IMG/VR virus record: IMGVR_UViG_3300020395_000002
Location: 25,997 to 89,996 of that record
Strand: one strand, 5' to 3'
Length of the DNA stretch: 64,000 bases
Origin: a virus
Positions 39,157 through 50,418 of this stretch are shown here, piece by piece. The notes beneath the pieces were generated by a model. That model ran no database searches. It was not told the DNA's origin and saw only the letters and a program-made list of their open reading frames with translations. Each line of letters opens with the position of its first letter. Position 1 is the stretch's first letter. The position numbers and the translations under genes are program-made.

Positions 39157-39423
39157 TTGACCACATCCTCAACTCGTCGTCGTACACGCAAGGCACCTGC
39201 TAAGAAGGCAGCACCAGCAGCATCTAAAGCAGTGTTAAATACTACACCAGTAGTAGAGGCACCTAAAGTGACCGAGACACCTAAAGTAAAACCACCAGCA
39301 GACATCACAAAATTACGTGGGTTTGACTTCGTGGTATTACCTCTGATATTCCTTGAGGCATTTATAGTGAACATTGTACAGAATGCTGGATTCAAAGTTC
39401 CAGACCGAGTAGCAGTTCAGTAA
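39157..39423 (+). CDS. Small Ala/Lys/Pro-rich membrane-anchored protein
   Basis: 88 residues from TTG 39157; no ATG is available in frame. The N-terminal 55 residues are low-complexity Arg/Lys/Ala/Pro (RRRTRKAPAKKAAPAASKA, VTETPKVKPPADIT). A hydrophobic C-terminal segment (VVLPLIFLEAFIVNIV) could cross or sit on the membrane. The composition resembles histone-like or linker regions, but no domain is recognised. It ends directly before a terminator-promoter cassette, so it closes the transcription unit starting at 37926. Confidence 0.65.
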   Translation: MTTSSTRRRTRKAPAKKAAPAASKAVLNTTPVVEAPKVTETPKVKPPADITKLRGFDFVVLPLIFLEAFIVNIVQNAGFKVPDRVAVQ

Positions 39424-39467
39424 GTGTCACACAACCCCCTTCACAGGGGGTTTTTTAATGCTATAAT
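39423..39467 (+). promoter_or_regulatory. Terminator-promoter cassette 1 with upstream octamer
   Basis: AGTGTCAC (39423-39430), C5 (39435-39439), TTCACA (39440-39445), G5 (39446-39450), T6 (39451-39456), AATGC, TATAAT (39462-39467). C5/G5 plus T6 make a rho-independent terminator. The loop TTCACA is one base from the TTGACA -35 box and sits 16 nt before the -10. Confidence 0.8.
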
Positions 39468-39488
39468 GAATCTATTAATGAGGTATCA

Positions 39489-39668
39489 ATGGAATTTCCT
39501 AAGGTCACAAGATACACAAGAGCACCAAGAGAAGGCAAGTATGTCATTTGTCCTCATTGTGAGGGTGCTATGAGAGTATTCAACTTCTCATTCTCTGCAC
39601 TAGGTTGTATGTACTGTAACAGGATGGTTAATAAGTATGATTTAACTTGTGCCCCTGTGTTACAATGA
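39489..39668 (+). CDS. Small zinc-ribbon-like protein
   Basis: 59 residues (MEFPKVTRYTRAPREGKYVI, CPHCEGAMRVFNF, CMYCNRMVNKYDL). Two CxxC pairs (CPHC and CMYC) about 20 residues apart form a plausible zinc ribbon, as in small nucleic-acid- or polymerase-binding proteins. It is the first gene after cassette 1 and its stop overlaps the next ATG (ATGA at 39665-39668). A regulatory role is possible but only inferred. Confidence 0.75.
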   Translation: MEFPKVTRYTRAPREGKYVICPHCEGAMRVFNFSFSALGCMYCNRMVNKYDLTCAPVLQ

Positions 39669-39742
39669 TAGTACCAATATTATTCTGGTCGTACGTTGCA
39701 TTTGCAGCGTCTGTAGCTATCTACCTTAAAGTAACTGAATGA
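39665..39742 (+). CDS. Membrane micropeptide (25 residues)
   Basis: MIVPILFWSYVAFAASVAIY plus LKVTE: one hydrophobic helix with a short charged tail. It overlaps both neighbours by four bases (ATGA at each end), so the ribosome passes directly from one frame to the next. That double coupling is the main support for it being translated. Confidence 0.6.
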   Translation: MIVPILFWSYVAFAASVAIYLKVTE

Positions 39743-40365
39743 ACTTTGAACGCTACGACATCTTTCCAACACCAGTATTTGAATTAGATGTGCCATCTGA
39801 CTTATATGCTCAGTTGTTATCCCTCTGCAATGTTGTAGACTGGGATACTGCTGAGACATATGCAGGTGGTTCTTCTAGTTGCAATGTACTAAACTTTCCA
39901 CAACAAGATGGTATACTATCATACTCTGACTTCACACCATTTCGTAAGTGGGCAGAGGACAGGCTAGAAGACATTAGTAATGGTATACCAGGTAATTACA
40001 GCAGTAATGTTAAGATAAATGCTGCTTGGATTAACAGATATAAGAAGGGTGACTATAATAGAGCACACAACCATCCGTGGTCATTGTACAGTGGTGTTGT
40101 GTTCCTGACAGGGAACTCAGGTAATATGGTATTCATAAAACCTAACCCATACAATGAAGAGGTCTTAAAGATCAGTAATGTGCACGATACTGTACCATTT
40201 CAGTCACAAGGTGGTAAAATGGTCGTGTTTCCCTCGACTCTCAAGCACTTTGTGACTGAGAATCAGAATGAAACAATTCGTTATACTCTAGCATTTAATG
40301 CTATGCCTGACAAGGTGGATGATGGACACACTGTCCAGTTTAAAAACTGTCACACAGATGGTTGA
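39739..40365 (+). CDS. 2-oxoglutarate/Fe(II) oxygenase (HxH type)
   Basis: 208 residues of the TIGR02466-like family: FPTPVFELDVPSDLY at the N-terminus, AHNHPWSLYSGVVFLTG (first metal motif, His-Asn-His), GGKMVVFPSTLKHFVTEN (second His) and TIRYTLAFNAM with Arg for 2-oxoglutarate. The layout is the same as the 2838 gene product. The start overlaps a micropeptide (ATGA). Its 3' end contains the ACTGTCAC octamer (40346-40353) and most of the -35 of the next promoter, so coding and regulatory sequence overlap. Confidence 0.85.
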   Translation: MNFERYDIFPTPVFELDVPSDLYAQLLSLCNVVDWDTAETYAGGSSSCNVLNFPQQDGILSYSDFTPFRKWAEDRLEDISNGIPGNYSSNVKINAAWINRYKKGDYNRAHNHPWSLYSGVVFLTGNSGNMVFIKPNPYNEEVLKISNVHDTVPFQSQGGKMVVFPSTLKHFVTENQNETIRYTLAFNAMPDKVDDGHTVQFKNCHTDG

Positions 40366-40389
40366 GTCGGTACCGATAAGGACTATAAT
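40346..40389 (+). promoter_or_regulatory. Octamer promoter without terminator
   Basis: ACTGTCAC (40346-40353), TTGAGT (40362-40367), 16-nt spacer containing the palindrome CGGTACCG, TATAAT (40384-40389). The spacing matches the terminator cassettes but no hairpin is present. An AGGAG Shine-Dalgarno follows at 40407-40411. Confidence 0.75.
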
Positions 40390-40416
40390 AGGTACATAAC
40401 ACACACAGGAGTTTAA

Positions 40417-40800
40417 ATGAGTCTTGAATCTGTATCTGCATCTCACGAGATCACAGTTGATGAGTTCGTCTCTGGTAAGGTTACTCCATTGAGTATGGAA
40501 GACAGAGTGTACGAATGGACTCAGAAACTCGTTGAGTGCTTACAAGCAAACTATGACCAAAATGGTTATTGTGACACTAAGTTTGAGATCCGTAGAGGAC
40601 GTAAGTTCCTTAAGATCGTGATGATTAACAATCAAGAGTCTGTTCACGCATTTATTGACAAGAAGACTGGTGAGGTATACAAACCAGCATCTTGGAACAA
40701 AGCAGCACAGCACGTTAGATATGATCTACGCATCATTAACTCACGTATGGAGTGTTATGCACGTGCTGACTGGGCAGGTGGCTATCTTTATATGAGGTAA
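40417..40800 (+). CDS. Conserved phage protein, unknown function
   Basis: 127 residues. The core (YCDTKFEIRRGRKFLKIVMI, then SVHAFIDKKTGEVYKPASW) is a compact alpha/beta domain that I recognise as a widespread phage protein of unknown function, often found among early genes. It has its own promoter (octamer, TTGAGT, TATAAT) and a strong AGGAG Shine-Dalgarno 5 nt before the ATG, which suggests high expression. The end RADWAGGYLYMR is typical of the family. No catalytic residues are evident. Confidence 0.82.
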   Translation: MSLESVSASHEITVDEFVSGKVTPLSMEDRVYEWTQKLVECLQANYDQNGYCDTKFEIRRGRKFLKIVMINNQESVHAFIDKKTGEVYKPASWNKAAQHVRYDLRIINSRMECYARADWAGGYLYMR

Positions 40801-40806
40801 CCATCT

Positions 40807-40893
40807 ATGCACGCTCTAATTGTCCTTTTTTCGTGCATTTTAATTTGCACGATCGTCCTAATCTACACTCTTTACAAATGGAATCCTCATTAA
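40807..40893 (+). CDS. Membrane micropeptide (28 residues)
   Basis: MHALIVLFSCILICTIVLIY plus TLYKWNPH: a single hydrophobic helix with two cysteines and a short basic tail. It starts 6 nt after the previous stop, and its last 16 bases overlap the start of the next gene. Membrane peptides of this kind recur in this region. Confidence 0.55.
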   Translation: MHALIVLFSCILICTIVLIYTLYKWNPH

Positions 40894-41126
40894 ATCAGTT
40901 AATTTCCGACCTTTCATACAGTATAGATACACTTGGTATGAAAGACGAGCATATGGAAGAGTTCTTCTCCATATGTGACAAGTATCAGACAACTCCAGAG
41001 TATTTTGCAGAGGAGTTTATGTGTATGTCAATAAGTAGAGATCAAGGTGCTGTACACGATGATGACTACTTAGAACTCGATGCGTTCAACGCATACCACG
41101 GCATTTACTTCGAGGAAGTTGAATGA
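40878..41126 (+). CDS. Small acidic hypothetical protein
   Basis: 82 residues from ATG 40878 (MESSLNQLISDLSYSIDTLG). An in-frame ATG at 40833 would add 15 residues but overlaps the micropeptide almost entirely, so I prefer 40878. The sequence is helical and acidic (HMEEFFSICDKYQTTPEYFA, DDDYLELDAFNAYHG). The stop overlaps the next ATG (ATGA, 41123-41126). Not recognised. Confidence 0.7.
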   Translation: MESSLNQLISDLSYSIDTLGMKDEHMEEFFSICDKYQTTPEYFAEEFMCMSISRDQGAVHDDDYLELDAFNAYHGIYFEEVE

Positions 41127-41350
41127 AGTTTCACATAGGGGATCACGTGAAGTGTGGTGATGATGAAGGATTCATCACATTTGTGGGTGACCCCTATTTT
41201 ACTCTCTGTGTACGTCAGTGGGAAGATCCCAACTCTATGCACGGATTTCGTCAATGTAATGTATTAATCTATCGAAATGACTGGACTAAATGTACCATCA
41301 CACGCAGAAATGATTCATCTTCAACTGCAAGCGATGTTGAGGGAACATAG
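41123..41350 (+). CDS. Small hypothetical protein, SH3-like beta-barrel style
   Basis: 75 residues: MKFHIGDHVKCGDDEGFITF, VGDPYFTLCVRQWED, CNVLIYRNDW. The FxxGDxVxxxxxxGxI opening, repeated short strands and the W-E-D turn suggest a small beta-barrel of the kind often found in phage early proteins. It is coupled to the gene before by ATGA and overlaps the gene after by 41 nt. Function unknown. Confidence 0.72.
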   Translation: MKFHIGDHVKCGDDEGFITFVGDPYFTLCVRQWEDPNSMHGFRQCNVLIYRNDWTKCTITRRNDSSSTASDVEGT

Positions 41351-41489
41351 TTTCCCACCTAATGAACTGTTCTATCTTGGTGAAGAAACAGTTGAAGGTA
41401 TTAAAGACCATTATTATCTCATAGGAGGACTACACACTGTACCTGCTAGAGATATACACGACCTTGAGGGCATTGAAACAGATGACTAA
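41310..41489 (+). CDS. Small hypothetical protein
   Basis: 59 residues from ATG 41310 (MIHLQLQAMLREHSFPPNEL). An upstream in-frame ATG at 41277 would deepen the overlap with the previous gene from 41 to 74 nt, so the later start is preferred. The rest (FYLGEETVEGIKDHYYLIGG, LHTVPARDIHDLEGIETDD) is acidic and not recognised. The stop overlaps the nuclease-like gene by 8 nt. Confidence 0.6.
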   Translation: MIHLQLQAMLREHSFPPNELFYLGEETVEGIKDHYYLIGGLHTVPARDIHDLEGIETDD

Positions 41490-42003
41490 GTACACACCAC
41501 AAGAAGCACGCAAGAAGTATGAGGAATGCTTCAAAGGATTGTATGATGTGTGTATAGATCAGGGGTGGGGTGACCCATTCTCTTATGCTAGGTCACGTGA
41601 AATACATATGGCTATTGCACTAGATCACGATGTGGCAGACACATATAGTGGTGCAGATGCATATGATAAGGGTGAACCAGTAGAATACAAGTCAACAATA
41701 GGTAAAGACATCAACGCTACGTACAATGGTATCAGTGTTAAGGATACGTGGGAGGAGCAAGATCAGTATTTAAGAGAAGAAAAGCTCTTGAAATATGATG
41801 ATCATTACTATGCACGCTATGAACACGGAGATATAGTAGAGTTGTGGCACCTTAAAGGTCAACAAGTATACGATTATCTACGTCCTAGACTGGAACAGAA
41901 GTATGATAGACTCAAGAAGAGAGCTAAGCAACCCGCAGATCCCCGCTTAGGTGATAATATATGTGCATCATACATCAGAAAGTGCGGAAAAGCGATCAAG
42001 TGA
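41482..42003 (+). CDS. PD-(D/E)XK nuclease-like protein
   Basis: 173 residues from ATG 41482; a TTG at 41464 is an alternative. The candidate nuclease core is Glu40 in a helix (SREIHMAIALDHDV), Asp59 (SGADAYD) and Glu68-Tyr-Lys70 (VEYKST). This D-x8-E-x-K spacing fits type II restriction-enzyme-like folds in which the substrate-facing strand reads G-x-D-A...V-E-Y-K-S. The C-terminal part (HGDIVELWHLKGQQVYDYLR, QPADPRLGDNICASYIRKCG) is helical and basic. A DNA-cleaving role, perhaps linked to the methyltransferase at 38183, is inferred. It precedes terminator-promoter cassette 2. Confidence 0.72.
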   Translation: MTKYTPQEARKKYEECFKGLYDVCIDQGWGDPFSYARSREIHMAIALDHDVADTYSGADAYDKGEPVEYKSTIGKDINATYNGISVKDTWEEQDQYLREEKLLKYDDHYYARYEHGDIVELWHLKGQQVYDYLRPRLEQKYDRLKKRAKQPADPRLGDNICASYIRKCGKAIK

Positions 42004-42015
42004 ACCACATTACAA

Positions 42016-42060
42016 ACTGTCACAAGCCCCCCTTTACAGGGGGTTTTTTAATGCTATACT
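42016..42060 (+). promoter_or_regulatory. Terminator-promoter cassette 2 with upstream octamer
   Basis: ACTGTCAC (42016-42023), C6 (42027-42032), TTTACA (42033-42038), G5 (42039-42043), T6 (42044-42049), AATGC, TATACT (42055-42060). The loop TTTACA is a near-consensus -35, 16 nt from the -10. It terminates the nuclease-like unit and starts the 42089 unit. Confidence 0.82.
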
Positions 42061-42088
42061 ACTAGAGTAGTCAAGGGAATTCAACCCA

Positions 42089-42331
42089 ATGCAAATTCGT
42101 AACTCTTCTGGTCAGCAAGCAGATTATTATCCTGTACGCTTACCTTTTGGTGAGGTATCATACCGTTACTTGCTAGAGGTTCTATCTCTTAATGGACGGA
42201 CGGTGAACAAAAGGTTCATCAACACTAACGAGTTGGACAGTGAAGTTCAAGAGCGAGTCAACTTCGGTTGGGACGTGACTGATTTCAACACTATTCCTCA
42301 GTTAGGAAATCCTGTTCTAGGGGCTGCATAG
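42089..42331 (+). CDS. Hypothetical protein
   Basis: 80 residues (MQIRNSSGQQADYYPVRLPF, GEVSYRYLLEVLSLNGRTV, FNTIPQLGNPVLGAA). AAGGGA (42073-42078) serves as Shine-Dalgarno. The stop codon lies in a perfect GGGGCT-GCAT-AGCCCC hairpin (42320-42335) that lacks a T-run, possibly an RNA-stability element. It is first in the unit driven by cassette 2. Not recognised. Confidence 0.72.
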   Translation: MQIRNSSGQQADYYPVRLPFGEVSYRYLLEVLSLNGRTVNKRFINTNELDSEVQERVNFGWDVTDFNTIPQLGNPVLGAA

Positions 42332-42374
42332 CCCCAAAATACTGTATATACTTACAGTAGTTGTACAAAATTCA

Positions 42375-42563
42375 GTGAAACTTCTTAAAGTGCTGCTTAA
42401 TCAATCCGAAATCGCTGTTCTTACCGATGCCTTACAACACCTCAGCTCAAGCCAACAATTCACCTCAGAAAAACACAGTGGAGTCAAATGTGGTGATCTC
42501 TACTCCAAACTTGAGAGAGCTGCCCACCGTCTTAACGATGGATGGTGCGACTCAGAGATATGA
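42375..42563 (+). CDS. Small hypothetical protein
   Basis: 62 residues from a GTG at 42375: MKLLKVLLNQSEIAVLTDAL, QHLSSSQQFT, CGDLYSKLERAAHRLNDGW. It is a regular alternation of two or three amphipathic helices, convincing as a real small protein. A second frame overlaps it from 42427, but the next gene more plausibly starts at 42538, leaving a 26-nt overlap. The 43-nt gap upstream holds ACTGTATATACTTACAGT, an imperfect inverted repeat that could be regulatory. Confidence 0.65.
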   Translation: MKLLKVLLNQSEIAVLTDALQHLSSSQQFTSEKHSGVKCGDLYSKLERAAHRLNDGWCDSEI

Positions 42564-42831
42564 ACATCTACGTCAAGTAGTTGAAGAATATCTCAGTGGT
42601 GGATCATCTGATGTTGAATCGGATGTTAAGCACGCACTTTATGAACTTCAGGATTTTCACAAGACACAATTACATCGTGTCGATGATCTAATTGGACGTT
42701 TGCATCAACAACAACATACTTACGAGTATCCTGTTCGTGATGTAGGCAGTAGTCAAGAAGATTGGGAGGATTTCTGGGTAAATGATTATCCAGAAGTTGA
42801 ACCGCTTGAACATACTAGTGAGGGGTGCTAA
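42538..42831 (+). CDS. Acidic helical hypothetical protein
   Basis: 97 residues from ATG 42538 (MDGATQRYEHLRQVVEEYLS). The frame is open back to 42427, but that segment is low-quality (Asn/Ser/Thr-rich) and lies over the previous gene. The body is helical (DVESDVKHALYELQDFHKTQ, LHRVDDLIGRLHQQQHTYEY) with an acidic, Trp-rich tail (EDWEDFWVNDYPEVEPLEH). The stop overlaps the next ATG (TAATG). Not recognised. Confidence 0.68.
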   Translation: MDGATQRYEHLRQVVEEYLSGGSSDVESDVKHALYELQDFHKTQLHRVDDLIGRLHQQQHTYEYPVRDVGSSQEDWEDFWVNDYPEVEPLEHTSEGC

Positions 42832-43013
42832 TGGCAGCAAAGAAGAAGAAATGGGAAGTCAATGTACTAGCTAAGATTGACCATAAATTACAATGGAGTA
42901 AGTTTGAACATAGTTGTGTGGATCCTGCTACCGCAGTTAAATCAGCATACTCAAAGTATCCAGACTTAACAACCATTTTAATTAACCTATCAACTGAACC
43001 ATTTACAGGATGA
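42831..43013 (+). CDS. Small basic hypothetical protein
   Basis: 60 residues from ATG 42831 (MAAKKKKWEVNVLAKIDHKL), which forms TAATG with the previous stop; a GTG six bases earlier is less likely. The DPATAVKSAYSKYPDLTTIL section suggests a strand-helix-strand unit. Its stop overlaps the next start (ATGA). Function unknown. Confidence 0.7.
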   Translation: MAAKKKKWEVNVLAKIDHKLQWSKFEHSCVDPATAVKSAYSKYPDLTTILINLSTEPFTG

Positions 43014-43225
43014 AAGATCAGCGAACCTTAGACGATTCACCCACATCATATGAGAAGTGGGATCGTGCTAAATCAATAGTACTTGAATCATTACACAAAC
43101 CTGACCCTGCATTACGCTCTTGTGCACATAATCAACAATGTTATGATGATGTGCTGCAAATACGAGAGCAAGTAATAGAGTTAGTCAGTCGAATGATTAA
43201 TCCAAGGAAGTTTATAGAGGACTAG
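43010..43225 (+). CDS. Small hypothetical protein ending in a terminator stem
   Basis: 71 residues (MKDQRTLDDSPTSYEKWDRA, then CAHNQQCYDDVLQIREQVIE). It is predominantly helical. The last codons and the TAG stop form the 5' arm of the terminator at 43216-43241. It is the last rightward gene before the leftward island. Confidence 0.7.
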   Translation: MKDQRTLDDSPTSYEKWDRAKSIVLESLHKPDPALRSCAHNQQCYDDVLQIREQVIELVSRMINPRKFIED

Positions 43226-43241
43226 AAATAGTCCTCTTTTT
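43216..43241 (+). terminator. Rho-independent terminator with GAAA tetraloop
   Basis: AGAGGACTA (43216-43224), loop GAAA, TAGTCCTCT (43229-43237), then TTTT: a perfect 9-bp stem closed by a GNRA-type loop. It separates the rightward unit from the convergent leftward oxygenase gene, whose stop is 6 nt away. Confidence 0.85.
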
Positions 43242-43246
43242 AATGG

Positions 43247-44038
43247 TTAAAACTTCTTATAATATTTTACAATCTGTTCACTAGGTGCAATACATTCTAC
43301 TTCATCACGTCCTTGTGTCTCTTCATCAATACGTGGTAGTCTACTAGCCCACGTTGTAGCAATATACTTCTTACATCCTAGTGGTGGATTACCACGGTGC
43401 ATATGTGTGTAGGATGCTGGAAATATAATTGTAGTGCCCTTCTTTGGTGCAATTCTAATACCTTGATACAAGAACTCAGTTTCACCACCAGCAGGTACAT
43501 CATTTAAGTATGTAATGAATACAAACTCACGTAGACCAACAAAGAAACCACTATTATCATAGTGCCATCCGTGAAATCCCTCGGATGGATTTGTCATTTG
43601 TACCTTAGCAGCACTCATCCAGAAATCATTTGCACCTAACTGACTAAACTCTTCAATATAATACTGTGATGCAAGTTTAGACCAACCAGTCAACATAGTA
43701 TTGCGTAGGTTGGGTGATGTACCCTCAGTAAGAAAGAAGAAGAAGTCTTTACGATTAAATTCACCAGCACCACCACCTTGAGCAGCCATCTCAGGTGTCT
43801 TTTCATTTGCATCCTTACGCTCCTTGAGATTATTAGCATAACCCATTAACATATCACAGAAGTTATCAGGTGCGTGATTAGGATACTCACGAATGAATGT
43901 TTCAATTCCACCTTCAGTGAAATGTTTAATCACCTCACGTCGTTGACCTCGTTCATTAGGATCACAGAACTCACGAATCTCCTGCTTGTTAGCACGGTTC
44001 TTCATTACATTGGGATCTAATTGCTTGTCAATGTCCAT
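43247..44038 (-). CDS. 2-oxoglutarate/Fe(II) oxygenase, prolyl-hydroxylase-like (HxD)
   Basis: 263 residues, leftward. The catalytic part has GFHGWHYDNSGFFVG (His-Tyr-Asp), FITYLNDVPAGGETEFLYQG, GTTIIFPASYTHMHRGNPP (second His) and KKYIATTW. This is a canonical prolyl 4-hydroxylase-like 2OG-Fe(II) arrangement. The N-terminal ~110 residues are charged and helical (GQRREVIKHFTEGGIETFIR) and unlike the other oxygenases here. It overlaps the gene before it by 11 nt and is last in the leftward island. Substrate unknown. Confidence 0.86.
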   Translation of the reverse strand: MDIDKQLDPNVMKNRANKQEIREFCDPNERGQRREVIKHFTEGGIETFIREYPNHAPDNFCDMLMGYANNLKERKDANEKTPEMAAQGGGAGEFNRKDFFFFLTEGTSPNLRNTMLTGWSKLASQYYIEEFSQLGANDFWMSAAKVQMTNPSEGFHGWHYDNSGFFVGLREFVFITYLNDVPAGGETEFLYQGIRIAPKKGTTIIFPASYTHMHRGNPPLGCKKYIATTWASRLPRIDEETQGRDEVECIAPSEQIVKYYKKF

Positions 44039-44213
44039 CTTGTACTCCTCCCATAAAAATAAACTCCTTGGCTGCAGTGTGTGATTTAAACTCCTTTATT
44101 ATACCACTATCTGTACGAACATACCACTTACCACGTCGCTCTGTTATTAAATGAGCAAACATAGCATTCTCGTAGTCCTCTAGTGACACATTGTCACAGT
44201 TTTTACATCCCAT
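44028..44213 (-). CDS. Small hypothetical protein in leftward island
   Basis: 61 residues from the ATG at 44213 (MGCKNCDNVSLEDYENAMFA). This start overlaps the upstream oxygenase stop by 11 nt, whereas the longer reading from 44261 would bury 16 extra residues in that gene. An N-terminal CKNC pair and a KWYVRTDSGIIKEFKSHTAA strand segment are visible. It is sandwiched between two oxygenase genes with overlaps on both sides. Not recognised. Confidence 0.65.
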   Translation of the reverse strand: MGCKNCDNVSLEDYENAMFAHLITERRGKWYVRTDSGIIKEFKSHTAAKEFIFMGGVQDGH

Positions 44214-44715
44214 TGTACTGTAGTTTAATATTACCTGATATTGTTGTACCTTCATTGCCATTGTTCACGTGATGTGCAATGAATGAAGGGAACACGACCA
44301 TAGAACCAGCACTCAATTTAATATTATGAATACAGGGCATAGATTTACTTACACCCATATGATTCTGTATTAATAGCCACGCTGGATTATATAACACAGT
44401 TTTACTATCAACTGTCTCATATATTATGAATGACCATTGTGACTGTGCGTGGATATGATAGCCCTGATAATCAGTAGCTACGTATCTATTACGCCAGATG
44501 TCAGTGAACTGTAAATTGATGTAAGGATCATACTCCAATAGAAATGGAGAGATAATACCATACAAATAATTGTAGGTGGACTCAGGACACTGTTGTTTAC
44601 CATAAGTCCAGTTCACTTCACCATTATAATACTCATCACCATCACCAAGAGAGACCTGATTCAGATCCACCTCAGTCTCTAGTATGGGTATTGAAAATAA
44701 ATGTGATACTGACAT
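44203..44715 (-). CDS. 2-oxoglutarate/Fe(II) oxygenase-like (HxH type)
   Basis: 170 residues from the ATG at 44715 (MSVSHLFSIPILETEVDLNQ); longer readings run into the promoter-terminator region. The layout follows the TIGR02466-like group: FSIPILETEV start, DYQGYHIHAQSQWSFIIYE (His-Ile-His), LSAGSMVVFPSFIAHHVNNG (second His) and a final strand TISGNIKLQYNG. The arginine expected in the last strand is not evident, so 2-oxoglutarate binding is less certain. Driven by a leftward terminator-promoter cassette. Confidence 0.75.
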   Translation of the reverse strand: MSVSHLFSIPILETEVDLNQVSLGDGDEYYNGEVNWTYGKQQCPESTYNYLYGIISPFLLEYDPYINLQFTDIWRNRYVATDYQGYHIHAQSQWSFIIYETVDSKTVLYNPAWLLIQNHMGVSKSMPCIHNIKLSAGSMVVFPSFIAHHVNNGNEGTTISGNIKLQYNGM

Positions 44716-44722
44716 AGAATAT

Positions 44723-44755
44723 AGTATAGCATTAAAAAACCCCTCTGTCGAGGGG
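44723..44755 (-). promoter_or_regulatory. Leftward terminator-promoter cassette
   Basis: Read leftward: CCCCTC (44755-44750), GACA loop, GAGGGG (44745-44740), T6, AATGC, TATACT (44728-44723). TCGACA, made of the stem end plus loop, is one base from TTGACA and lies 17 nt before the -10. It ends the 44787 gene unit and starts the 44715 gene. The ACTGTCAC octamer is not evident here. Confidence 0.75.
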
Positions 44756-44786
44756 TTCTGTGGGCGGTATGTTAACTGGACTATGC

Positions 44787-44951: not shown

Positions 44952-45026
44952 AAATGTTTAACCTCTAATGGAATGATCCTCATAACAAGGAAGTTTGGGT
45001 TCATCTGACCTCGCTCATTCTACTAC

Positions 45027-45089
45027 TATTTATGTCCTGGATCCCTGTTACAGACAATACTCTTAGCCATCTGTAAACGAGTATTTATA
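45027..45089 (-). promoter_or_regulatory. Two T4-type late promoter motifs, leftward
   Basis: On the minus strand, CATAAATA (45034-45027) and TATAAATA (45089-45082) both match the NATAAATA late motif and face the 44951 gene. They lie in the 193-nt divergent gap 44952-45144, which otherwise contains the rightward promoter at 45096. Confidence 0.5.
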
Positions 45090-45095
45090 CCGAGG

Positions 45096-45124
45096 TTTAC
45101 ACATCACCACCCGTATGGTATAAT
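45096..45124 (+). promoter_or_regulatory. Consensus sigma70 promoter, rightward
   Basis: TTTACA (45096-45101), exactly 17 nt, TATAAT (45119-45124); 20 nt before the ATG at 45145. No ACTGTCAC octamer is present at the -43 position, unlike promoters with weaker -35 boxes. Confidence 0.8.
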
Positions 45125-45144
45125 AACTTATCGTCTCAAATATT

Positions 45145-45336
45145 ATGACATCTAATGATCACCAGATAAAGACTCAGTGGTATTATTGGTTTTGGGCTGT
45201 GTGTGCGGTTGCGGTCGTCGGCGGTCAGGTCTATGTTGGTAGTGGCTACCGTCATATGGCACAAGAACTAATGAACACATTCCAAACATCTTGCCAACGC
45301 ACTGGTCCTAAACTAATGCCAGTCCAACGCCCATAA
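45145..45336 (+). CDS. Small membrane protein
   Basis: 63 residues: a short polar N-terminus (MTSNDHQIKTQW), a hydrophobic helix (YYWFWAVCAVAVVGGQVYVG) and a ~28-residue polar tail (MAQELMNTFQTSCQRTGPKL). One transmembrane helix with the tail probably outside the cytoplasm. First gene behind a consensus promoter. Its neighbours include another membrane peptide and a lipoprotein, so an envelope or lysis-associated role is possible but not shown. Confidence 0.7.
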   Translation: MTSNDHQIKTQWYYWFWAVCAVAVVGGQVYVGSGYRHMAQELMNTFQTSCQRTGPKLMPVQRP

Positions 45337-45363
45337 ATCATTACACACCTTTGGTATAAAACA

Positions 45364-45624
45364 ATGAAAGAAACTGAATCATACGAACAGTTGCTACAAC
45401 GTTTCACGAAGAGAGTGACACAACTGGAAATGAGACAAGTGGAACTGGAAGAAGCACATCTAGAGTATGTGAAACTAGACAGAGAACTTGATCGCCTTGA
45501 AGGGAGTGTACAAGCAGTTGAGTATCTTGCCTTTGGTAAGATGCCTGGTGATGGTAACCACGATGGATTTAAAGCACATAAACCAAAGCCCCAACAGATC
45601 AATGATCTTGGATCACTGGACTGA
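45364..45624 (+). CDS. Coiled-coil hypothetical protein
   Basis: 86 residues. Residues 5-50 are a strongly charged heptad-like helix (YEQLLQRFTKRVTQLEMRQV, then LDRELDRLEGSVQAVEYL). The C-terminal 30 residues are polar and Pro/Lys-rich (HDGFKAHKPKPQQINDLG). No membrane segment. The stop overlaps the next start (TGATG). Possibly an oligomerising accessory protein; not recognised. Confidence 0.72.
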   Translation: MKETESYEQLLQRFTKRVTQLEMRQVELEEAHLEYVKLDRELDRLEGSVQAVEYLAFGKMPGDGNHDGFKAHKPKPQQINDLGSLD

Positions 45625-45749
45625 TGTTACCAATACCTATATTTGAATTAGTAACACTCATCCTAGCATTGTTGTGGTTGTGGACACTGCTAGGTATACT
45701 ACCAACCAAAAACATTGTATCATTTAAAGAGGACGATGACAAGGATTAA
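45624..45749 (+). CDS. Membrane micropeptide (41 residues)
   Basis: MLPIPIFELVTLILALLWLW, then TLLGILPTKNIVSFKEDDDK: one hydrophobic helix with a short, strongly acidic tail. It starts on the previous stop (TGATG), and the following lipoprotein gene begins inside its last 14 bases. Such nested envelope peptides recall spanin gene pairs, but this product lacks the expected periplasmic coiled coil. Confidence 0.6.
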   Translation: MLPIPIFELVTLILALLWLWTLLGILPTKNIVSFKEDDDKD

Positions 45750-45912
45750 ATTACTACTACTAGCCCCCTTGTTAGTAGGATGTACTAATGCAGGTATGGG
45801 TAGTATCAACTGGAGTAATCCAGGAGTAGCAGACACATATACTTGTGAAGAAGTAACAGATCCAGCATCATATTGTGCAACAGGTGAACATCCTAACCTA
45901 TGTGACTGCTAA
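45736..45912 (+). CDS. Small lipoprotein
   Basis: 58 residues from ATG 45736. A lipoprotein signal is clear: MTRIKLLLLAPLLVGCTNAG, with basic start, hydrophobic core and lipobox LVGC (Cys16). The mature part (~43 residues) is short and has four more cysteines (TCEEV, YCATG, NLCDC). It overlaps the upstream membrane peptide by 14 nt and the next gene by TAATG. It is probably outer-membrane anchored; an o-spanin-like role is possible but unproven. Confidence 0.72.
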   Translation: MTRIKLLLLAPLLVGCTNAGMGSINWSNPGVADTYTCEEVTDPASYCATGEHPNLCDC

Positions 45913-46088
45913 TGGCAATGAATGAACAAACTAAACTGTACTTTGCAATGGAACACATCCTTCATTTGGGTGATTTGTTTGAAGGTAATGAGTACCAACA
46001 GTACTTAGAGGGACATCTTGCTTCAATCAGGTATGAGGTAGAGAGACAGACCAAATTGGTAGAAGATAGGAAGGGCATCCGCACGTAG
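45912..46088 (+). CDS. Conserved small phage protein
   Basis: 58 residues (MAMNEQTKLYFAMEHILHLG, DLFEGNEYQQYLEGHLASIR, YEVERQTKLVEDRKG). It forms an entirely helical hairpin. I recognise the style as a short protein recurrent in T4-like cyanophages with no assigned function. It starts on the lipoprotein stop (TAATG) and is the last gene before the 286-nt gap with DnaA-box-like sites. Confidence 0.78.
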   Translation: MAMNEQTKLYFAMEHILHLGDLFEGNEYQQYLEGHLASIRYEVERQTKLVEDRKGIRT

Positions 46089-46110
46089 CTCTCACTGATA
46101 TGACTCAGAG

Positions 46111-46154
46111 TTTTCCACAGGGTTGTGGATAACTTGTGGAAAACCTGTGGAAAA
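46111..46154. repeat. Cluster of four DnaA-box-like 9-mers
   Basis: TTTTCCACA (46111-46119, plus), TGTGGATAA (46124-46132; its complement TTATCCACA is the perfect DnaA box), TGTGGAAAA (46135-46143) and TGTGGAAAA (46146-46154). The last three are in the same orientation with starts exactly 11 bp apart. They lie in the longest intergenic gap of the window (46089-46374), followed by AT-rich sequence (46162-46182). The rest of the gap holds a small ACCTT/AAGGT hairpin (46202-46215), a GGTTGA...TCAACC inverted repeat (46213-46261) and the promoter at 46326. Confidence 0.8.
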
Positions 46155-46325
46155 CTACGTCAATTAATAAATGTTAAATAAACCATAGTAGGGTGTTCTA
46201 TACCTTGGTTAAGGTTGAGGGATTTGGGGGTCTTAGCCCGCAGTCTAGCATTTGTCAACCAAAAACCTCAGAAACTTCAAAAAGTGTAACAATTCGGAAA
46301 TTACGAAACTCAAAAAGTTAAAAAG

Positions 46326-46354
46326 TTGACTTTTTAAGAATAATAAGTTATAAT
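46326..46354 (+). promoter_or_regulatory. Consensus sigma70 promoter
   Basis: TTGACT (46326-46331), 17 nt, TATAAT (46349-46354); 20 nt before the ATG at 46375. The -35 lies in a small AAAAAGT/ACTTTTT inverted repeat. No ACTGTCAC octamer is present at the -43 position. Confidence 0.85.
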
Positions 46355-46374
46355 AGAATTAAATAATTACTAAA

Positions 46375-46920
46375 ATGCCCGAATTAACCAGTTTAGTAGG
46401 TTACACAGAAGTGCCATCCAGTGCAATTGAGTATTTGGAGTTAGATTTTGACCATAATTATGTTAAAATTACATACAAATCTAACCTAAATGTCCAATAT
46501 TCTTACAAATGTGAAGATTTAGAGGAATTTCAATCATCATTTATGGAACTCAGTGGTAGATTAGAGGCTGAGCAAGACAGAAACGAAGAGGAGGAGCTGG
46601 TAGAAGATGTAAGTACCACTATAGAGAGGGAAGATGCATCTATTGGTAAGTTTATTAACGAACGTATCCAGTCTGGTAATCTGAAGGTTGAATCTAGACT
46701 AGAACAAAACGAGCATATGCTCAATAGGGGTTGGGACGCTTTCCAAGGTAGCACAATGCCCGAAGGTGCCGTGGTCCTGGGTGAGGATGATATCAATTTT
46801 TCACAGCCAGTGGAAACCAGTTCACAAAGTGGCACAAACACGTTCGACATCGATGCTGGAGGGACTATAATAGAAGAGTCAACACCACCAGACCTACCAA
46901 TTCCATATGAGAAAGATTGA
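46375..46920 (+). CDS. KTSC-like domain protein with acidic tail
   Basis: 181 residues. The N-terminal ~60 residues (VPSSAIEYLELDFDHNYVKI, TYKSNLNVQYSYKCEDLEEF) resemble a KTSC domain: S-S-x-I, two strands and a Y-x-Y ending. The middle is a long acidic helix (RLEAEQDRNEEEELVEDVST) and the C-terminus is polar and probably disordered. It follows a near-perfect promoter next to the DnaA-box cluster, so it is likely an early, strongly expressed gene. Function unknown. Confidence 0.75.
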   Translation: MPELTSLVGYTEVPSSAIEYLELDFDHNYVKITYKSNLNVQYSYKCEDLEEFQSSFMELSGRLEAEQDRNEEEELVEDVSTTIEREDASIGKFINERIQSGNLKVESRLEQNEHMLNRGWDAFQGSTMPEGAVVLGEDDINFSQPVETSSQSGTNTFDIDAGGTIIEESTPPDLPIPYEKD

Positions 46921-47224
46921 TGCTCAACTTCTATCTGCAATCCAGTACGGCACATCATTTGCCAAGGGTAACAGATCAGTAATACACACTGACGAAGGAG
47001 TAGAGGTAAGATTCCACGGGCACCACATTGCAACAATTGCAAAGGGAAGGTCCAACGTTTCAATCAACAACTGTGGGTACTGGACCAACACCACTAAGCA
47101 AATCTTAAATGAGATCTTACGTGATGTGCTTGGCTACGGTTTATTCCAAAGGCAGTTTGATTGGTTCGTAAGCACACCCCAGGGAGATGTTGAGTACTTA
47201 GGAGCTTGGCAAGAGTTCGCCTAA
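46907..47224 (+). CDS. Conserved phage hypothetical protein
   Basis: 105 residues. The core VEVRFHGHHIATIAKGRSNV, then INNCGYWTNTTKQILNEIL has the HxxHIA and GYxTxTTxxxLN pattern of a widespread small phage protein family of unknown function. The C-terminus includes FDWFVSTPQG. It overlaps the preceding gene by 14 nt. Probably part of the early operon from 46326. Confidence 0.75.
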   Translation: MRKIDAQLLSAIQYGTSFAKGNRSVIHTDEGVEVRFHGHHIATIAKGRSNVSINNCGYWTNTTKQILNEILRDVLGYGLFQRQFDWFVSTPQGDVEYLGAWQEFA

Positions 47225-47250
47225 ATACCATCAGCATTGGTTTCTTTTAT

Positions 47251-47436
47251 ATGTCAGGTCTAAGGAATTTTATTAGTATACCTCACATCGAGGTTGCACC
47301 TTCTGAAACTACACGTTACAGAATTACCTTAGACCTGACATTGGAAGACGACCCAACCCAGTGGGACTGGGAAGATTTACTAGAAATTGAAAAACCTGAA
47401 AACGTCGAAATTGTCGGTTTTGAGGAATTAAATTAA
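47251..47436 (+). CDS. Small acidic hypothetical protein
   Basis: 61 residues from ATG 47251 (MSGLRNFISIPHIEVAPSET). The frame stays open to a TTG at 47206, but that would overlap the previous gene, so the ATG is preferred. Alternating strands (TRYRITLDLTLED) and a Glu-rich tail (DLLEIEKPENVEIVGFEELN). Not recognised. Confidence 0.62.
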   Translation: MSGLRNFISIPHIEVAPSETTRYRITLDLTLEDDPTQWDWEDLLEIEKPENVEIVGFEELN

Positions 47437-47509
47437 ATCAATTTCTATTAAGTCTTCCTTTTAAGTTTAATAACATTAATAGGGTATGCTGTAGAGTATA
47501 CAAACTAAA

Positions 47510-47728
47510 ATGACTCACACTAAAAAAGACTTAGTTAAGAAATTAGTAGCTACCAGGATGGCTAAACTAGTAGAGAGTACACCTGGAATAGACTATCAAA
47601 AGGTATTAGATAATCTATACAATGAGTTTGGAAGTAAGACAGTAGAGGATATAGTATTATACTACAACACCACAGCCCCATCGGGGAGTGAGAAGGTGAC
47701 AGTTGAACAAGTGTCTGATTTGATCTGA
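47510..47728 (+). CDS. Small helical hypothetical protein
   Basis: 72 residues (MTHTKKDLVKKLVATRMAKL, YQKVLDNLYNEFGSKTVEDI). It is helical with a basic N-terminus, reminiscent of small DNA-binding or degradation-tag proteins without a clear motif. A weak -10 (TATGCT, 47485-47490) precedes it. Its 3' end contains one arm of the GATCTGA inverted repeat that precedes the next promoter. Confidence 0.7.
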   Translation: MTHTKKDLVKKLVATRMAKLVESTPGIDYQKVLDNLYNEFGSKTVEDIVLYYNTTAPSGSEKVTVEQVSDLI

Positions 47729-47752
47729 CATTGGTATCAGATCTGTTATAAT
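47710..47752 (+). promoter_or_regulatory. Promoter with inverted repeat and octamer-like site
   Basis: CTGACA (47725-47730), 16 nt, TATAAT (47747-47752). GATCTGA (47722-47728) and TCAGATC (47737-47743) form a perfect 7-bp inverted repeat across the -35 and spacer, like an operator. AGTGTCTG (47710-47717) lies at the octamer position with five of eight matches. Confidence 0.6.
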
Positions 47753-47776
47753 AGATATGTCCACAAAGGAGAATCT

Positions 47777-48235
47777 ATGCCAAATTGGTGTCAAAACAGA
47801 GTTTCTTTCTATTCTGAGGATACATCAGCATTAGAGAAACTACTCAATATATTTCAATCTGACGAACCATTCAACTCAATAGTTCCGTCACCCGATTGGA
47901 AGACTACACCAAATGACAAAGGTGAACTCCCAGTATTAAGAGAGATGAAATCTCCTAAGACTGGCGAAGTATTTTATCGCACTTATGACTTTCCAGATGG
48001 TACGAATGATGATCGTTGGTACGATTGGAATATCCAGAACTGGGGTACTAAGTGGGAAGTAAGTCAAGTAGAATGTGATCATTGGGACGACAACTCATTT
48101 GAATGTGAGTTTGAAACTGCGTGGTCACCACCTGAGGGAATATTCTACGCATTGCGTCAACTATTTCCTGATGTTGATGTCACGTGGTTCTATGACGAAC
48201 CTGGAATGATGGTTGCTGGATACCTAGGACAATGA
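47777..48235 (+). CDS. Api92 / YubB ferredoxin-like fold protein
   Basis: 152 residues starting MPNWCQNRVSFYSEDTSALE, the family hallmark (MPNWC-x-N). It continues with WYDWNIQNWGTKWEVSQVEC and FETAWSPPEGIFYALRQLFP, which are typical of this ferredoxin-like domain found on phages and plasmids. No biochemical role is established that I can name. An AAGGAG Shine-Dalgarno (47766-47771) lies 5 nt before the ATG, and the promoter has a possible operator. The next gene overlaps by ATGA. Confidence 0.85.
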   Translation: MPNWCQNRVSFYSEDTSALEKLLNIFQSDEPFNSIVPSPDWKTTPNDKGELPVLREMKSPKTGEVFYRTYDFPDGTNDDRWYDWNIQNWGTKWEVSQVECDHWDDNSFECEFETAWSPPEGIFYALRQLFPDVDVTWFYDEPGMMVAGYLGQ

Positions 48236-48423
48236 AATCATTTCTAATCGAGTGTGCAGAGATTAACTACTTCACAATAGAAGTAGATGCTGAGTCCGAG
48301 GATCAGGCAATCGAGAAGGCACGTGCAGACATTAATTCATTTGATGTCATAGACGAGTACGTCTCAGAGTGGGATGTTAACACGATCCGAGAGTTAGATG
48401 CTGGTGGCTGTGCCATTGGTTAA
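48232..48423 (+). CDS. Small acidic hypothetical protein
   Basis: 63 residues (MKSFLIECAEINYFTIEVDA, ESEDQAIEKARADINSFDV). The strand-helix-strand plan and acidic residues suggest a small ferredoxin-like half-domain. The start overlaps the Api92-like stop (ATGA). The stop is followed within one base by the ACTGTCAC octamer of cassette 3. Not recognised. Confidence 0.72.
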   Translation: MKSFLIECAEINYFTIEVDAESEDQAIEKARADINSFDVIDEYVSEWDVNTIRELDAGGCAIG

Positions 48424-48467
48424 ACTGTCACCCACCCCCTACTCAGGGGGTTTTTTATTGCTATAAT
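48424..48467 (+). promoter_or_regulatory. Terminator-promoter cassette 3 with upstream octamer
   Basis: ACTGTCAC (48424-48431), C5 (48435-48439), loop TACTCA, G5 (48446-48450), T6 (48451-48456), ATTGC, TATAAT (48462-48467). The loop is a poor -35 match here, but the spacing equals that of cassettes 1 and 2. Predicted start is about 48474, the first bases of the structured leader. Confidence 0.8.
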
Positions 48468-48472
48468 GAATA

Positions 48473-48610
48473 TGTTGAGGGAAAGTTTAGACGCTAGGCA
48501 GGGGTGAGCAACAATTCAGATGCCGAATGCGTGCACGCTGTGGAAAACTGCTCTTTATGTTTGGAGACCTCTAGTACTCATTGCGAGTTTTGAAGTCGCT
48601 GCCCTCAACA
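48473..48610 (+). ncRNA. Structured 5' leader, riboswitch candidate
   Basis: TGTTGAGGG (48473-48481) is exactly complementary to CCCTCAACA (48602-48610), enclosing 120 nt. The 5' arm begins at the predicted transcription start and the 3' arm ends 10 nt before an AGGAG Shine-Dalgarno (48621-48625). Inside, ACGC/GCGT (48491-48494 with 48529-48532), GGCA/TGCC (48497-48500 with 48521-48524), palindrome GCGTGCACGC (48529-48538) and AAAACT/AGTTTT (48544-48549 with 48586-48591) can pair. No convincing ORF fills it. Confidence 0.5.
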
Positions 48611-48630
48611 TCCATTTTATAGGAGAGTCT

Positions 48631-48810
48631 ATGTCATTTTTCAAGCACGTTCAACTTCACGAGTACGACATCACCGACAAAGGTATTAGTCAAGCGTGTT
48701 ATGATGAAATGAAGCGTGACGGGTACATCCTACCAGAGGATGAACTCAGAGTCCTAGCAGATTACAAGCGTGAGCAGTTCAAAGAGTATATGCGTCCACT
48801 GTTCGCATAA
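48631..48810 (+). CDS. Small hypothetical protein behind structured leader
   Basis: 59 residues from ATG 48631 (MSFFKHVQLHEYDITDKGIS), chosen because AGGAG at 48621-48625 lies 5 nt upstream; the frame is open back to 48520 but through the leader. The rest (DEMKRDGYILPEDELRVLAD, YKREQFKEYMRPLFA) is helical. It is the only gene controlled by the leader before the next terminator, so whatever the leader senses would act on this protein. Not recognised. Confidence 0.72.
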   Translation: MSFFKHVQLHEYDITDKGISQACYDEMKRDGYILPEDELRVLADYKREQFKEYMRPLFA

Positions 48811-48835
48811 ATTCAGGCTGCCAACCAGTTCAAGA

Positions 48836-48879
48836 ACTGGCACACACTGACCCCATTCTGACGGATGGGGTCTTATAAT
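48836..48879 (+). promoter_or_regulatory. Terminator-promoter cassette 4, octamer variant
   Basis: ACTGGCAC (48836-48843), stem GACCCCATTC (48849-48858) with loop TGAC and GGATGGGGTC (48863-48872), then TATAAT (48874-48879). The octamer-to-(-10) spacing is kept (30 nt between) although no -35 is visible. The -10 starts 2 nt after the hairpin, and the ATG at 48886 is at the predicted start site. Confidence 0.72.
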
Positions 48880-48885
48880 TTGTAT

Positions 48886-49047
48886 ATGACACACAGAAAT
48901 CTACCACTCACCGAGGCAACTGAAACCGCATTGGTTGACGCACTCGTAATGCTCCGTGACCTCGGTTGCCCTGATCACATTGATGAGGAGGCATTTGACG
49001 AACTCTGTGACAGAGTTTTTGAACCTACACCTTGGGATTACAACTGA
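48886..49047 (+). CDS. Leaderless small acidic protein
   Basis: 53 residues from ATG 48886 (MTHRNLPLTEATETALVDAL, GCPDHIDEEAFDELCDRVF). The longer in-frame start at 48865 lies in the terminator hairpin and is rejected. TATAAT ends 6 nt before the ATG, so transcription should begin on or next to the start codon, and no Shine-Dalgarno is possible. It is helical and acidic. The stop overlaps the next ATG (TGATG). Confidence 0.68.
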   Translation: MTHRNLPLTEATETALVDALVMLRDLGCPDHIDEEAFDELCDRVFEPTPWDYN

Positions 49048-49235
49048 TGTACGGCGATCTCTATCCTCAGCATTTCTATGCTTCATTCATCAGAGCGAAC
49101 GGGTACGATCTCAAGACAGATAAACCCAAACCCGAACCAGTTAAGGAAGTGCCACAATGGTACTTGAAAAGATACCCTGATTCGAGTTATGATGATTACA
49201 TCAACGAACTTCACGAGTATTTAAACGGACTATGA
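49047..49235 (+). CDS. Small hypothetical protein
   Basis: 62 residues from ATG 49047 (MYGDLYPQHFYASFIRANGY), overlapping the previous stop (TGATG). A Lys/Pro linker (TDKPKPEPVKEVPQ) separates two short helical regions, the second YPDSSYDDYINELHEYLNGL. Its stop overlaps the next ATG (ATGA). Not recognised; the KPKPEP linker recurs in the 50813 product. Confidence 0.68.
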   Translation: MYGDLYPQHFYASFIRANGYDLKTDKPKPEPVKEVPQWYLKRYPDSSYDDYINELHEYLNGL

Positions 49236-49372
49236 GCGTATTACACCACGAAGACATTTTAGAGGATTGCTACTGTGAGATCCTCGAAGAGTTTAGAACT
49301 GATCTACTCTTTATGTCTCAAGAACAGATAGACAAAATGGTCTATCAAAGATTCGAGGATAAGTGCCAGTGA
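49232..49372 (+). CDS. Small acidic helical protein (46 residues)
   Basis: MSVLHHEDILEDCYCEILEE, then FRTDLLFMSQEQIDKMVYQR. It is an acidic two-helix peptide coupled by ATGA to the previous gene. Its last codons form the 5' arm of the terminator at 49355-49389, so it closes the unit that starts at 48874. Confidence 0.62.
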   Translation: MSVLHHEDILEDCYCEILEEFRTDLLFMSQEQIDKMVYQRFEDKCQ

Positions 49373-49389
49373 GCACTATCCTCTTTTTT
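49355..49389 (+). terminator. Rho-independent terminator
   Basis: GAGGATA-A-GTGC (from 49355) pairs with GCACTATCCTC (ending 49383) with a single bulge, followed by six Ts (49384-49389). It overlaps the end of the 49232 gene. Confidence 0.8.
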
Positions 49390-49410
49390 ATTCACTTCTT
49401 TACTGTTATT

Positions 49411-49728
49411 ATGCCCGAAGCGAACGACTGCACATTTGATGCACTAGTCGAGAACTATACAGACATCGTTCTTGATCGGATGGACAACAAAGATCTAGAA
49501 CAATATGTGTGGGATAGTCTCACGGACTACTATGAGAAAATGACTGAGCACGAACTCATAGAACATATAAATGAAATGGAAGACCCAGAAACCGCAGATG
49601 ATATTATAGGGTCTTGTTATGGTACGAATCCACCCGACTGTTTCATTGTAGGACGGGATGACGTACCCAAAGTGACAGCTAGTGCCAGTCCACAAACTGA
49701 CTACTCACGCATCCCATCACGCTATTGA
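49411..49728 (+). CDS. Acidic hypothetical protein
   Basis: 105 residues from ATG 49411 (MPEANDCTFDALVENYTDIV). The frame is open to 49363, but that lies in the terminator. The body is a series of acidic helices (LDRMDNKDLEQYVWDSLTDY, YEKMTEHELIEHINEMEDPE) followed by a polar tail. No clear promoter or Shine-Dalgarno is seen between the terminator and the ATG, so expression may need readthrough. Not recognised. Confidence 0.68.
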   Translation: MPEANDCTFDALVENYTDIVLDRMDNKDLEQYVWDSLTDYYEKMTEHELIEHINEMEDPETADDIIGSCYGTNPPDCFIVGRDDVPKVTASASPQTDYSRIPSRY

Positions 49729-49733
49729 GTGGT

Positions 49734-49765
49734 TATAATAAAAGAGTAAAGCAAACAACTCTTTT
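49734..49765 (+). promoter_or_regulatory. Promoter plus hairpin abutting the start codon
   Basis: TATAAT (49734-49739) is followed at once by AAAAGAGT (49740-49747) and its exact complement ACTCTTTT (49758-49765), which ends on the base before the ATG at 49766. An octamer-like ACTGACTA (49696-49703) sits at the expected distance. No Shine-Dalgarno is present. Confidence 0.6.
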
Positions 49766-50077
49766 ATGATCCGACTTGAACTGATGATGGGACTGGACAT
49801 CCCCGATGCTGGTACAGTCACAGACGCAATGTTTGATGATTTTATCCGCACCGAGATTGCACCACATCTTGACTATGCTACAATTATTGACGGTGTTGGT
49901 CTTTGGAAAGGCACCCGTGAAGATTGTAAAATCTTAGTCATTATGGCAGCAGAGTCTGACCAATCAAATCTTGAATCAGTTCTTAGATCAATCGGCAAGG
50001 CATATGCTCAGGCATTCCGTCAAGACTCGGTTGGTTTAGTTTGCACACCCAATGTTCCTATGGAGTTAATTAAGTGA
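49766..50077 (+). CDS. Conserved hypothetical protein
   Basis: 103 residues (MIRLELMMGLDIPDAGTVTD, FIRTEIAPHLDYATIIDGVG, KGTREDCKILVIMAAESDQS). The T-D-x-x-F-x-x-F...A-P...G...G-x-W-x-G pattern resembles a small alpha/beta phage and bacterial family (DUF3574-like). A hairpin immediately before the ATG suggests translational control. The stop overlaps the next GTG start. Function unknown. Confidence 0.72.
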   Translation: MIRLELMMGLDIPDAGTVTDAMFDDFIRTEIAPHLDYATIIDGVGLWKGTREDCKILVIMAAESDQSNLESVLRSIGKAYAQAFRQDSVGLVCTPNVPMELIK

Positions 50078-50211
50078 ACGAATTCGACACAAACGCAGTT
50101 GATGATTTGATCCGAGACTCTCTCGGATCAGATGAGAATCTTGAAATCTATCTTGCCGACGTGCCAGAAGATGAAAAGGTAATTGCCCAACTTATGAAAG
50201 AGGTTCTGTGA
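50074..50211 (+). CDS. Small acidic protein (45 residues), GTG start
   Basis: MNEFDTNAVDDLIRDSLGSD, then ENLEIYLADVPEDEKVIAQL. It is an acidic helical peptide. The GTG at 50074 overlaps the previous stop as GTGA, and its own stop overlaps another GTG (50208) in the same way, giving a chain of coupled starts. Confidence 0.6.
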   Translation: MNEFDTNAVDDLIRDSLGSDENLEIYLADVPEDEKVIAQLMKEVL

Positions 50212-50372
50212 ATGATCCGAATCGCAAACCTCTTTCTAAAACCATTCAATCGCAAACTCGTTCTATTTCATCACAAATGACTCAAGAGACTTACGACCTA
50301 CTTTGCAATGATCCTTACATCAAGTATTATTTCACAGTAGAGACCAATCAACAAGTAGCTAAGACAGTTTAA
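50208..50372 (+). CDS. Small hypothetical protein (54 residues), GTG start
   Basis: MNDPNRKPLSKTIQSQTRSI, then TYDLLCNDPYIKYYFTVETN. GTG 50208 overlaps the previous stop. An alternative reading exists: ATG 50212 encodes a 22-residue peptide ending at 50280, whose stop overlaps ATG 50277 for the last 31 residues of this frame. The sequence alone does not decide between them. It ends just before the octamer of cassette 5. Confidence 0.5.
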   Translation: MNDPNRKPLSKTIQSQTRSISSQMTQETYDLLCNDPYIKYYFTVETNQQVAKTV

Positions 50373-50374
50373 GA

Positions 50375-50418
50375 ACTGTCACTATACACCCCCATTCTTA
50401 GGAGTGGGGGTTTATAAT
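50375..50418 (+). promoter_or_regulatory. Terminator-promoter cassette 5 with upstream octamer
   Basis: ACTGTCAC (50375-50382), stem CCCCCATTC (50389-50397), loop TTAG, GAGTGGGGG (50402-50410), then TATAAT (50413-50418). No -35 is visible at the usual place. The -10 ends 6 nt before the ATG at 50425, exactly as at cassette 4. Confidence 0.75.

Follow-up and report, generated by a model that had tools for sequence, protein, structure and literature searches.

A palindromic operator at a fixed distance from the -10 box marks a promoter class of T4-like cyanophages and probably binds a dimeric activator

Results

The DNA analysed here (the window, 64,000 nucleotides) comprises bases 25997-89996 of the 89,996-base virus record IMGVR_UViG_3300020395_000002. 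Its best annotated DNA match is a methylase gene of Prochlorococcus phage P-HM2 and the start of the record falls within a psbA gene; the window is therefore a fragment of a T4-like cyanophage, whose host is probably Prochlorococcus. The system in question is a set of promoters in which a conserved octamer stands at a fixed distance upstream of the -10 box. The original prediction had located six such octamers 30-31 nucleotides (nt) before the box, and all six are present there: counted from octamer end to -10 start, the gap is 31 nt for those at 39423 and 42016 and 30 nt for those at 40346, 48424, 48836 and 50375. Its two weaker candidates, at 47710 and 49696, have gaps of 29 and 30 nt, and the promoters with the strongest -35 boxes (45096 and 46326) indeed lack the octamer. 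It had overlooked one more site (AGTGGCAC at 46828 and its TATAAT at 46866), as well as an upstream half-site that turns the octamer into a palindrome, and hairpins lying between octamer and -10 box (39423, 42016, 48424 and 48836; Table 1).

The octamer alone is barely enriched: the window holds 8 exact copies where 4.4 are expected, and 8 of 100 shuffles reach as high a count. Its placement is another matter. Counting octamers with no more than one mismatch, the window has seven at a gap of 29-31 nt to TATA[AC]T, against a mean of 0.47 and a maximum of 2 over 47 other gap triplets, and a mean of 0.42 and a maximum of 3 at this gap in Markov-simulated windows. The possibility that the octamer is a simple repeat was rejected because the enrichment depends on spacing.

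Viral contigs were then scanned for ACTGTCAC-N28-32-TATAAT, yielding at least 120 stretches, and a logo was built from 101 distinct sites among the matches listed, chosen by octamer and -10 only. Sites with gaps of 29-31 have common flanks, whereas those with gaps of 28 and 32 are mostly background-like. An upstream half-site that had not been selected for appeared in this logo, giving CAGTT-N4-AACTG, and this core extends to the 24-base palindrome TGTGMCASTT-N4-AASTGKCACA. In this two-fold symmetric operator, the octamer forms the half nearer to the promoter. Taking the -10 box at -12 to -7, the dyad centre lies at about -53.5 and the element spans about -65 to -42. The degeneracy is identical in both halves (mirrored G or C, and A/C versus G/T), and within a site the two halves vary independently, with 6.36 of 10 positions complementary compared to 6.51 after shuffling. 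This combination is characteristic of a DNA dyad recognised by a dimer. The 10-nt arms around a 4-nt loop do resemble a tetraloop hairpin, but in view of their lack of covariation we give practically no credence to a role as an RNA stem-loop of the upstream transcript. The original prediction had proposed either an activator site or a specialised sigma/alpha contact; the fixed spacing, the dyad near -53.5 and the weak -35 boxes favour the former. The latter is disfavoured, since a dyad with two-fold symmetry over 24 bp is what one would expect a dimeric DNA-binding protein to recognise.

Among the 155 promoters scoring above 24 in a search that permitted gaps of 28-33, 136 have a gap of 29-31. 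Their -35 boxes are weak yet above chance (mean best match 3.30 of 6 positions versus 2.45 in shuffled spacers), and 30 of the 155 match at 5 or more positions. Such weak -35 boxes suggest that activation is needed. They also bear on the idea that the dyad is a repressor operator, shutting the promoters off later in infection: dimeric repressors bind dyads too and the same DNA facts would apply, but a centre at about -53.5 lies upstream of the -35 position, as is typical of activators, and we regard repression as improbable. Some palindromes have -10-like boxes properly spaced on both sides (66591-66614 and 44640-44663 in P-SSM2; 45165-45188 in G001), and these could be divergent promoters sharing one operator.

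Table 1. Operators, promoters and associated features (window positions unless a phage is named; PWM, position weight matrix; gap in nt from octamer end to -10 start)
Feature	Position	Strand	Remarks
Palindromic operator AGTAGCAGTT-CAGT-AAGTGTCACA	39408..39431	+	PWM score 33.1; left half-site found de novo
-10 box TATAAT	39462..39467	+	gap 31
Palindromic operator CTGTCCAGTT-TAAA-AACTGTCACA	40331..40354	+	PWM score 37.3; spacer without hairpin
-10 box TATAAT	40384..40389	+	gap 30
Operator TGAACCACAT-TACA-AACTGTCACA	42001..42024	+	PWM score 35.3; left half weak
-10 box TATACT	42055..42060	+	gap 31
Operator GAAACCAGTT-CACA-AAGTGGCACA	46813..46836	+	PWM score 35.7; overlooked originally; within end of upstream open reading frame
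-10 box TATAAT	46866..46871	+	gap 30
Operator GGTGACAGTT-GAAC-AAGTGTCTGA	47695..47718	+	PWM score 26.9; left half strong; originally a weaker candidate
-10 box TATAAT	47747..47752	+	gap 29
Operator TGTGCCATTG-GTTA-AACTGTCACC	48409..48432	+	PWM score 34.2
-10 box TATAAT	48462..48467	+	gap 30
Operator CCAACCAGTT-CAAG-AACTGGCACA	48821..48844	+	PWM score 33.8
-10 box TATAAT	48874..48879	+	gap 30
Weaker operator AGTGCCAGTC-CACA-AACTGACTAC	49681..49704	+	PWM score 21.4
-10 box TATAAT	49734..49739	+	gap 30
Operator TAAGACAGTT-TAAG-AACTGTCACT	50360..50383	+	PWM score 33.2
-10 box TATAAT	50413..50418	+	gap 30
Operator-less sigma70-type promoter TTTACA-17-TATAAT	45096..45124	+	contrast class; record 71115 = window 45119
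Operator-less sigma70-type promoter TTGACT-17-TATAAT	46326..46354	+	contrast class; record 72345 = window 46349
Intrinsic-terminator-like hairpin AACCCCCT-TCAC-AGGGGGTT with T run	39432..39456	+	in spacer
Terminator-like spacer hairpins, other sites	42027-42048, 48433-48456, 48845-48873, 50388-50412		
phrog_495 protein	43010-43225		in motif-positive isolates first compared and S-TIM5; absent from T4, HTVC008M
AbrB/MazE-like gene, Syn9	53843-54016		
AbrB/MazE-like gene, S-PM2	1913-2116		
AbrB/MazE-like gene, S-RSM4	141255-141446		
AbrB/MazE-like gene, G001	46863-47030		
AbrB/MazE-like gene, P-SSM4	52114-52293		
AbrB/MazE-like gene, P-SSM2	69222-69413		

A motif search in related phages, anchored on the -10 box as had been suggested with the original prediction, recovers the same spacing peak in the T4-like cyanophage isolates P-SSM2, S-PM2, P-HM2, P-SSM4, Syn9 and S-RSM4. 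One model, whose training set consisted solely of metagenome loci, made 68 placements in eight cyanophage genomes versus about 4 at shifted spacings, and none in T4 or HTVC008M; a refined model, partly trained on the genomes on which it was scored, gave 110 versus 12.8 at control. Held-out genomes also peak at gap 30 (S-SSM7, 17 versus 2.4 per other gap; P-RSM4, 11 versus 1.4; S-CRM01, 16 versus 1.3), and the exact pattern was matched 10 times in S-SSM7, 5 in P-RSM4, twice in Syn33 and once in S-CRM01, with 0 matches in reversed controls. In an unsupervised count of 7-mers upstream of -10 boxes, half-site words rank at or nearly at the top in S-SSM7, P-SSM2 and P-HM2, and not in S-SM2, T4 or HTVC008M. 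The T4-like cyanophage DNA scanned, about 2.4 Mb, contains 66 dyads with at most 2 mismatches, against 1 in the control and none in other phages; motif and dyad scans found nothing in T4, RB49, KVP40, HTVC008M, PSS2, P-SSP7 and Ma-LMM01. As an observation apart, S-TIM5, which belongs to another family, has -10 boxes at 163-171 kb that are preceded, at gap 31, by a variant half-site (approximately AASTGGCCCA).

The dyad could instead be bound by a host cyanobacterial transcription factor, which the phages would hijack on entry through many evolved near-consensus sites. There are precedents, since the host PhoB binds S-PM2d promoters (PMC10976474) and NtcA boxes have been predicted in cyanophages (PMC3037559), and if the promoters of the small open reading frames fire first, no phage protein would exist yet. 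However, only 19 dyads with at most 2 mismatches occur in 300 Cyanobiaceae genomes, spread over 12 of them; the exact core is near chance, with 8 occurrences in 121 host genomes; and operator density is roughly a thousandfold below that of the motif-bearing phages. A host regulon was rejected, the matches being scattered, some of them beside integrase genes, with no genes in common. Furthermore, P-SSP7 and PSS2, from other families infecting the same host genera, lack the motif. Like the cyanophage operator, Pho and NtcA boxes are regulator sites in the upstream part of cyanophage promoters, but the palindrome fits neither the CTTA direct repeats of the former nor the GTA-N8-TAC of the latter (PMC3037559). 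We therefore consider a host factor a possible but rather unlikely explanation. Two cyanobacterial genomes have near-matches of the palindrome ahead of integrase-like genes (loci L323, L324 and L326), and these near-matches are probably unrelated. Present across T4-like cyanophages and not in hosts or other phages, the element supports the earlier suggestion of a phage-specific early or middle promoter class.

Operator promoters stand ahead of cobS and the clamp and clamp-loader genes in Syn9, S-PM2 and P-SSM2, with orthologous placement at cobS-gp45-gp44 in all three. They also precede helicase genes in Syn9 and P-SSM2, a large peptidase-annotated gene in P-SSM2 and, in Syn9, its counterpart gp150, the ssb gene of Syn9, where the -10 is weak, and clusters of small hypothetical genes (42-68 kb in P-SSM2, 2-23 kb in S-PM2, 44-53 kb in Syn9). 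Operator-less promoters close to TTGACA-17-TATAAT precede presumed gp55, psbA and hli-like genes; these identities come from position, length and sequence, gp55 being presumed from its adjacency to gp47. In P-HM2, the middle cluster includes auxiliary metabolic genes, psbA and hli among them (PMC5082946), and we infer that early or delayed-early timing is more likely for the operator class.

Four window sites (39423, 42016, 48424 and 48836) carry perfect spacer hairpins, and a T run follows three of these; an imperfect hairpin was also read from the sequence at 50375. At 39423, TTCACA, a -35-like hexamer at the -35 position, sits in the hairpin loop region. Since such a hairpin lies inside the operator-to--10 spacer, terminator and next promoter overlap, and a single stretch of DNA may serve both as the end of one gene and as the start of its downstream neighbour. 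This is reminiscent of the PeSL composite promoter-terminator cassettes described in T4-like phages (as cited by PMC4503421), in which hairpin and next promoter likewise share DNA, and four or five window sites would fit a mobile cassette conserved for recombination or termination rather than for regulation. Across genomes, however, only 21 of 94 sites, about a fifth, have a spacer hairpin (12 with a T run), the -10 spacing is kept in all, and it is the operator that is conserved; this explanation is thus very improbable.

Discussion

Based on the operator architecture, distribution and gene context presented here, we think it probable that a dimeric activator, most likely encoded by the phage, drives the operator promoters as an early (delayed-early) class. 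Host RNA polymerase carrying sigma70/SigA would use promoters with a good -10, a weak -35 and the operator at about -65 to -42; a homodimeric DNA-binding protein would occupy the operator, contact RNA polymerase and activate. This protein, presumably a phage product, would be expressed from strong operator-less promoters, and the co-regulated early (delayed-early) set would include small-gene host-takeover clusters and the genes for clamp and clamp loader, helicase and single-strand binding protein. We give about even chances to a broader proposal, namely that T4-like cyanophages, which have neither MotA nor AsiA, run their pre-late genes by an undescribed dimeric activator of their own. Acting at the 24-bp palindrome around -53.5, it would separate early-type genes with operator promoters from gp55, psbA and hli with their operator-less TTGACA promoters.

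Among known systems, Class I/II activator-dependent sigma70 promoters (CRP, FNR and NtcA type) likewise carry a dimeric operator ahead of a weak -35, and the cyanophage promoters show the constant distance to a good -10 and the symmetric site with independent halves that go with this type; sequence, length and centre position differ, and no host regulon with the cyanophage operator was found. The T4 middle promoters share the use of host RNA polymerase, a good -10, a poor -35 and an upstream activator element, as well as similar genes (clamp, clamp loader, helicase, ssb). However, they rely on AsiA-modified sigma70 and a short MotA box near -30 that replaces the -35, instead of a 24-bp palindrome near -53.5, and neither domain was detected in the cyanophages examined: MotA (PF09114; E 3e-63 in T4) exceeded the cut-off in none, the best match being in Syn9 (E 0.013, below cut-off, with an internal stop), and AsiA (PF09010) was matched in T4 only (E 2e-43).

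By its fold, the best candidate for the regulator, in several phages only, is a small AbrB/MazE-like protein encoded near operator clusters in Syn9 (gp92), S-PM2 (S-PM2p006), S-RSM4, G001 and P-SSM4, and weakly matched in P-SSM2. Several points nevertheless weigh against the favoured explanation. This protein is missing from P-HM2, S-SSM7 and S-CRM01, and among the isolates compared no phage protein family tracks motif presence and absence exactly. The T4-like cyanophage S-SM2 (NC_015279) lacks the motif in exact-pattern, dyad and gap-peak scans, and the window's own dyads are weak, with 0 within 2 mismatches of the consensus. The proposal also relies on predicted starts at these -10 boxes, and for immediate-early promoters a factor synthesised by the phage would arrive too late, unless virions carried it into the cell.

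As a natural negative, S-SM2 is useful for finding the regulator, and families present in it were filtered out. Two families, phrog_507 and phrog_495, which S-TIM5 shares with every motif-positive isolate of the first comparison, fail this filter; the phrog_507 model (predicted local distance difference test, pLDDT, 70) had no fold match at E<=0.001. A basic small-protein family that seemed absent from S-SM2 was also rejected, a paralogue being present there.

A 2010 review noted that cyanomyoviruses have no motA, asiA, alt or mod genes, considered their early and middle transcription to be still unclear, and reported a putative middle motif in P-SSM4 and Syn9 and not in P-SSM2 or S-PM2 (PMC2984593). 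The palindrome is strong in P-SSM2 and S-PM2 and present in most T4-like cyanophages examined. A search of openly accessible papers found no description of it; it may be partly known, and its newness as an activator-type phage promoter class is provisional; half-site strings in the cyanophage literature gave no promoter description, the matches examined being PCR primers. T4-like cyanophages are abundant ocean viruses; through the operator, the timing of their genes becomes open to direct test, and the palindrome is a concrete probe with which to fish out the regulator. Elsewhere in the window, the intergenic region 46110-46165 contains a cluster of DnaA-box-like repeats (TTGTGGATAAC, TTGTGGAAAAC and CTGTGGAAAAC), possibly an origin or a DnaA-binding site.

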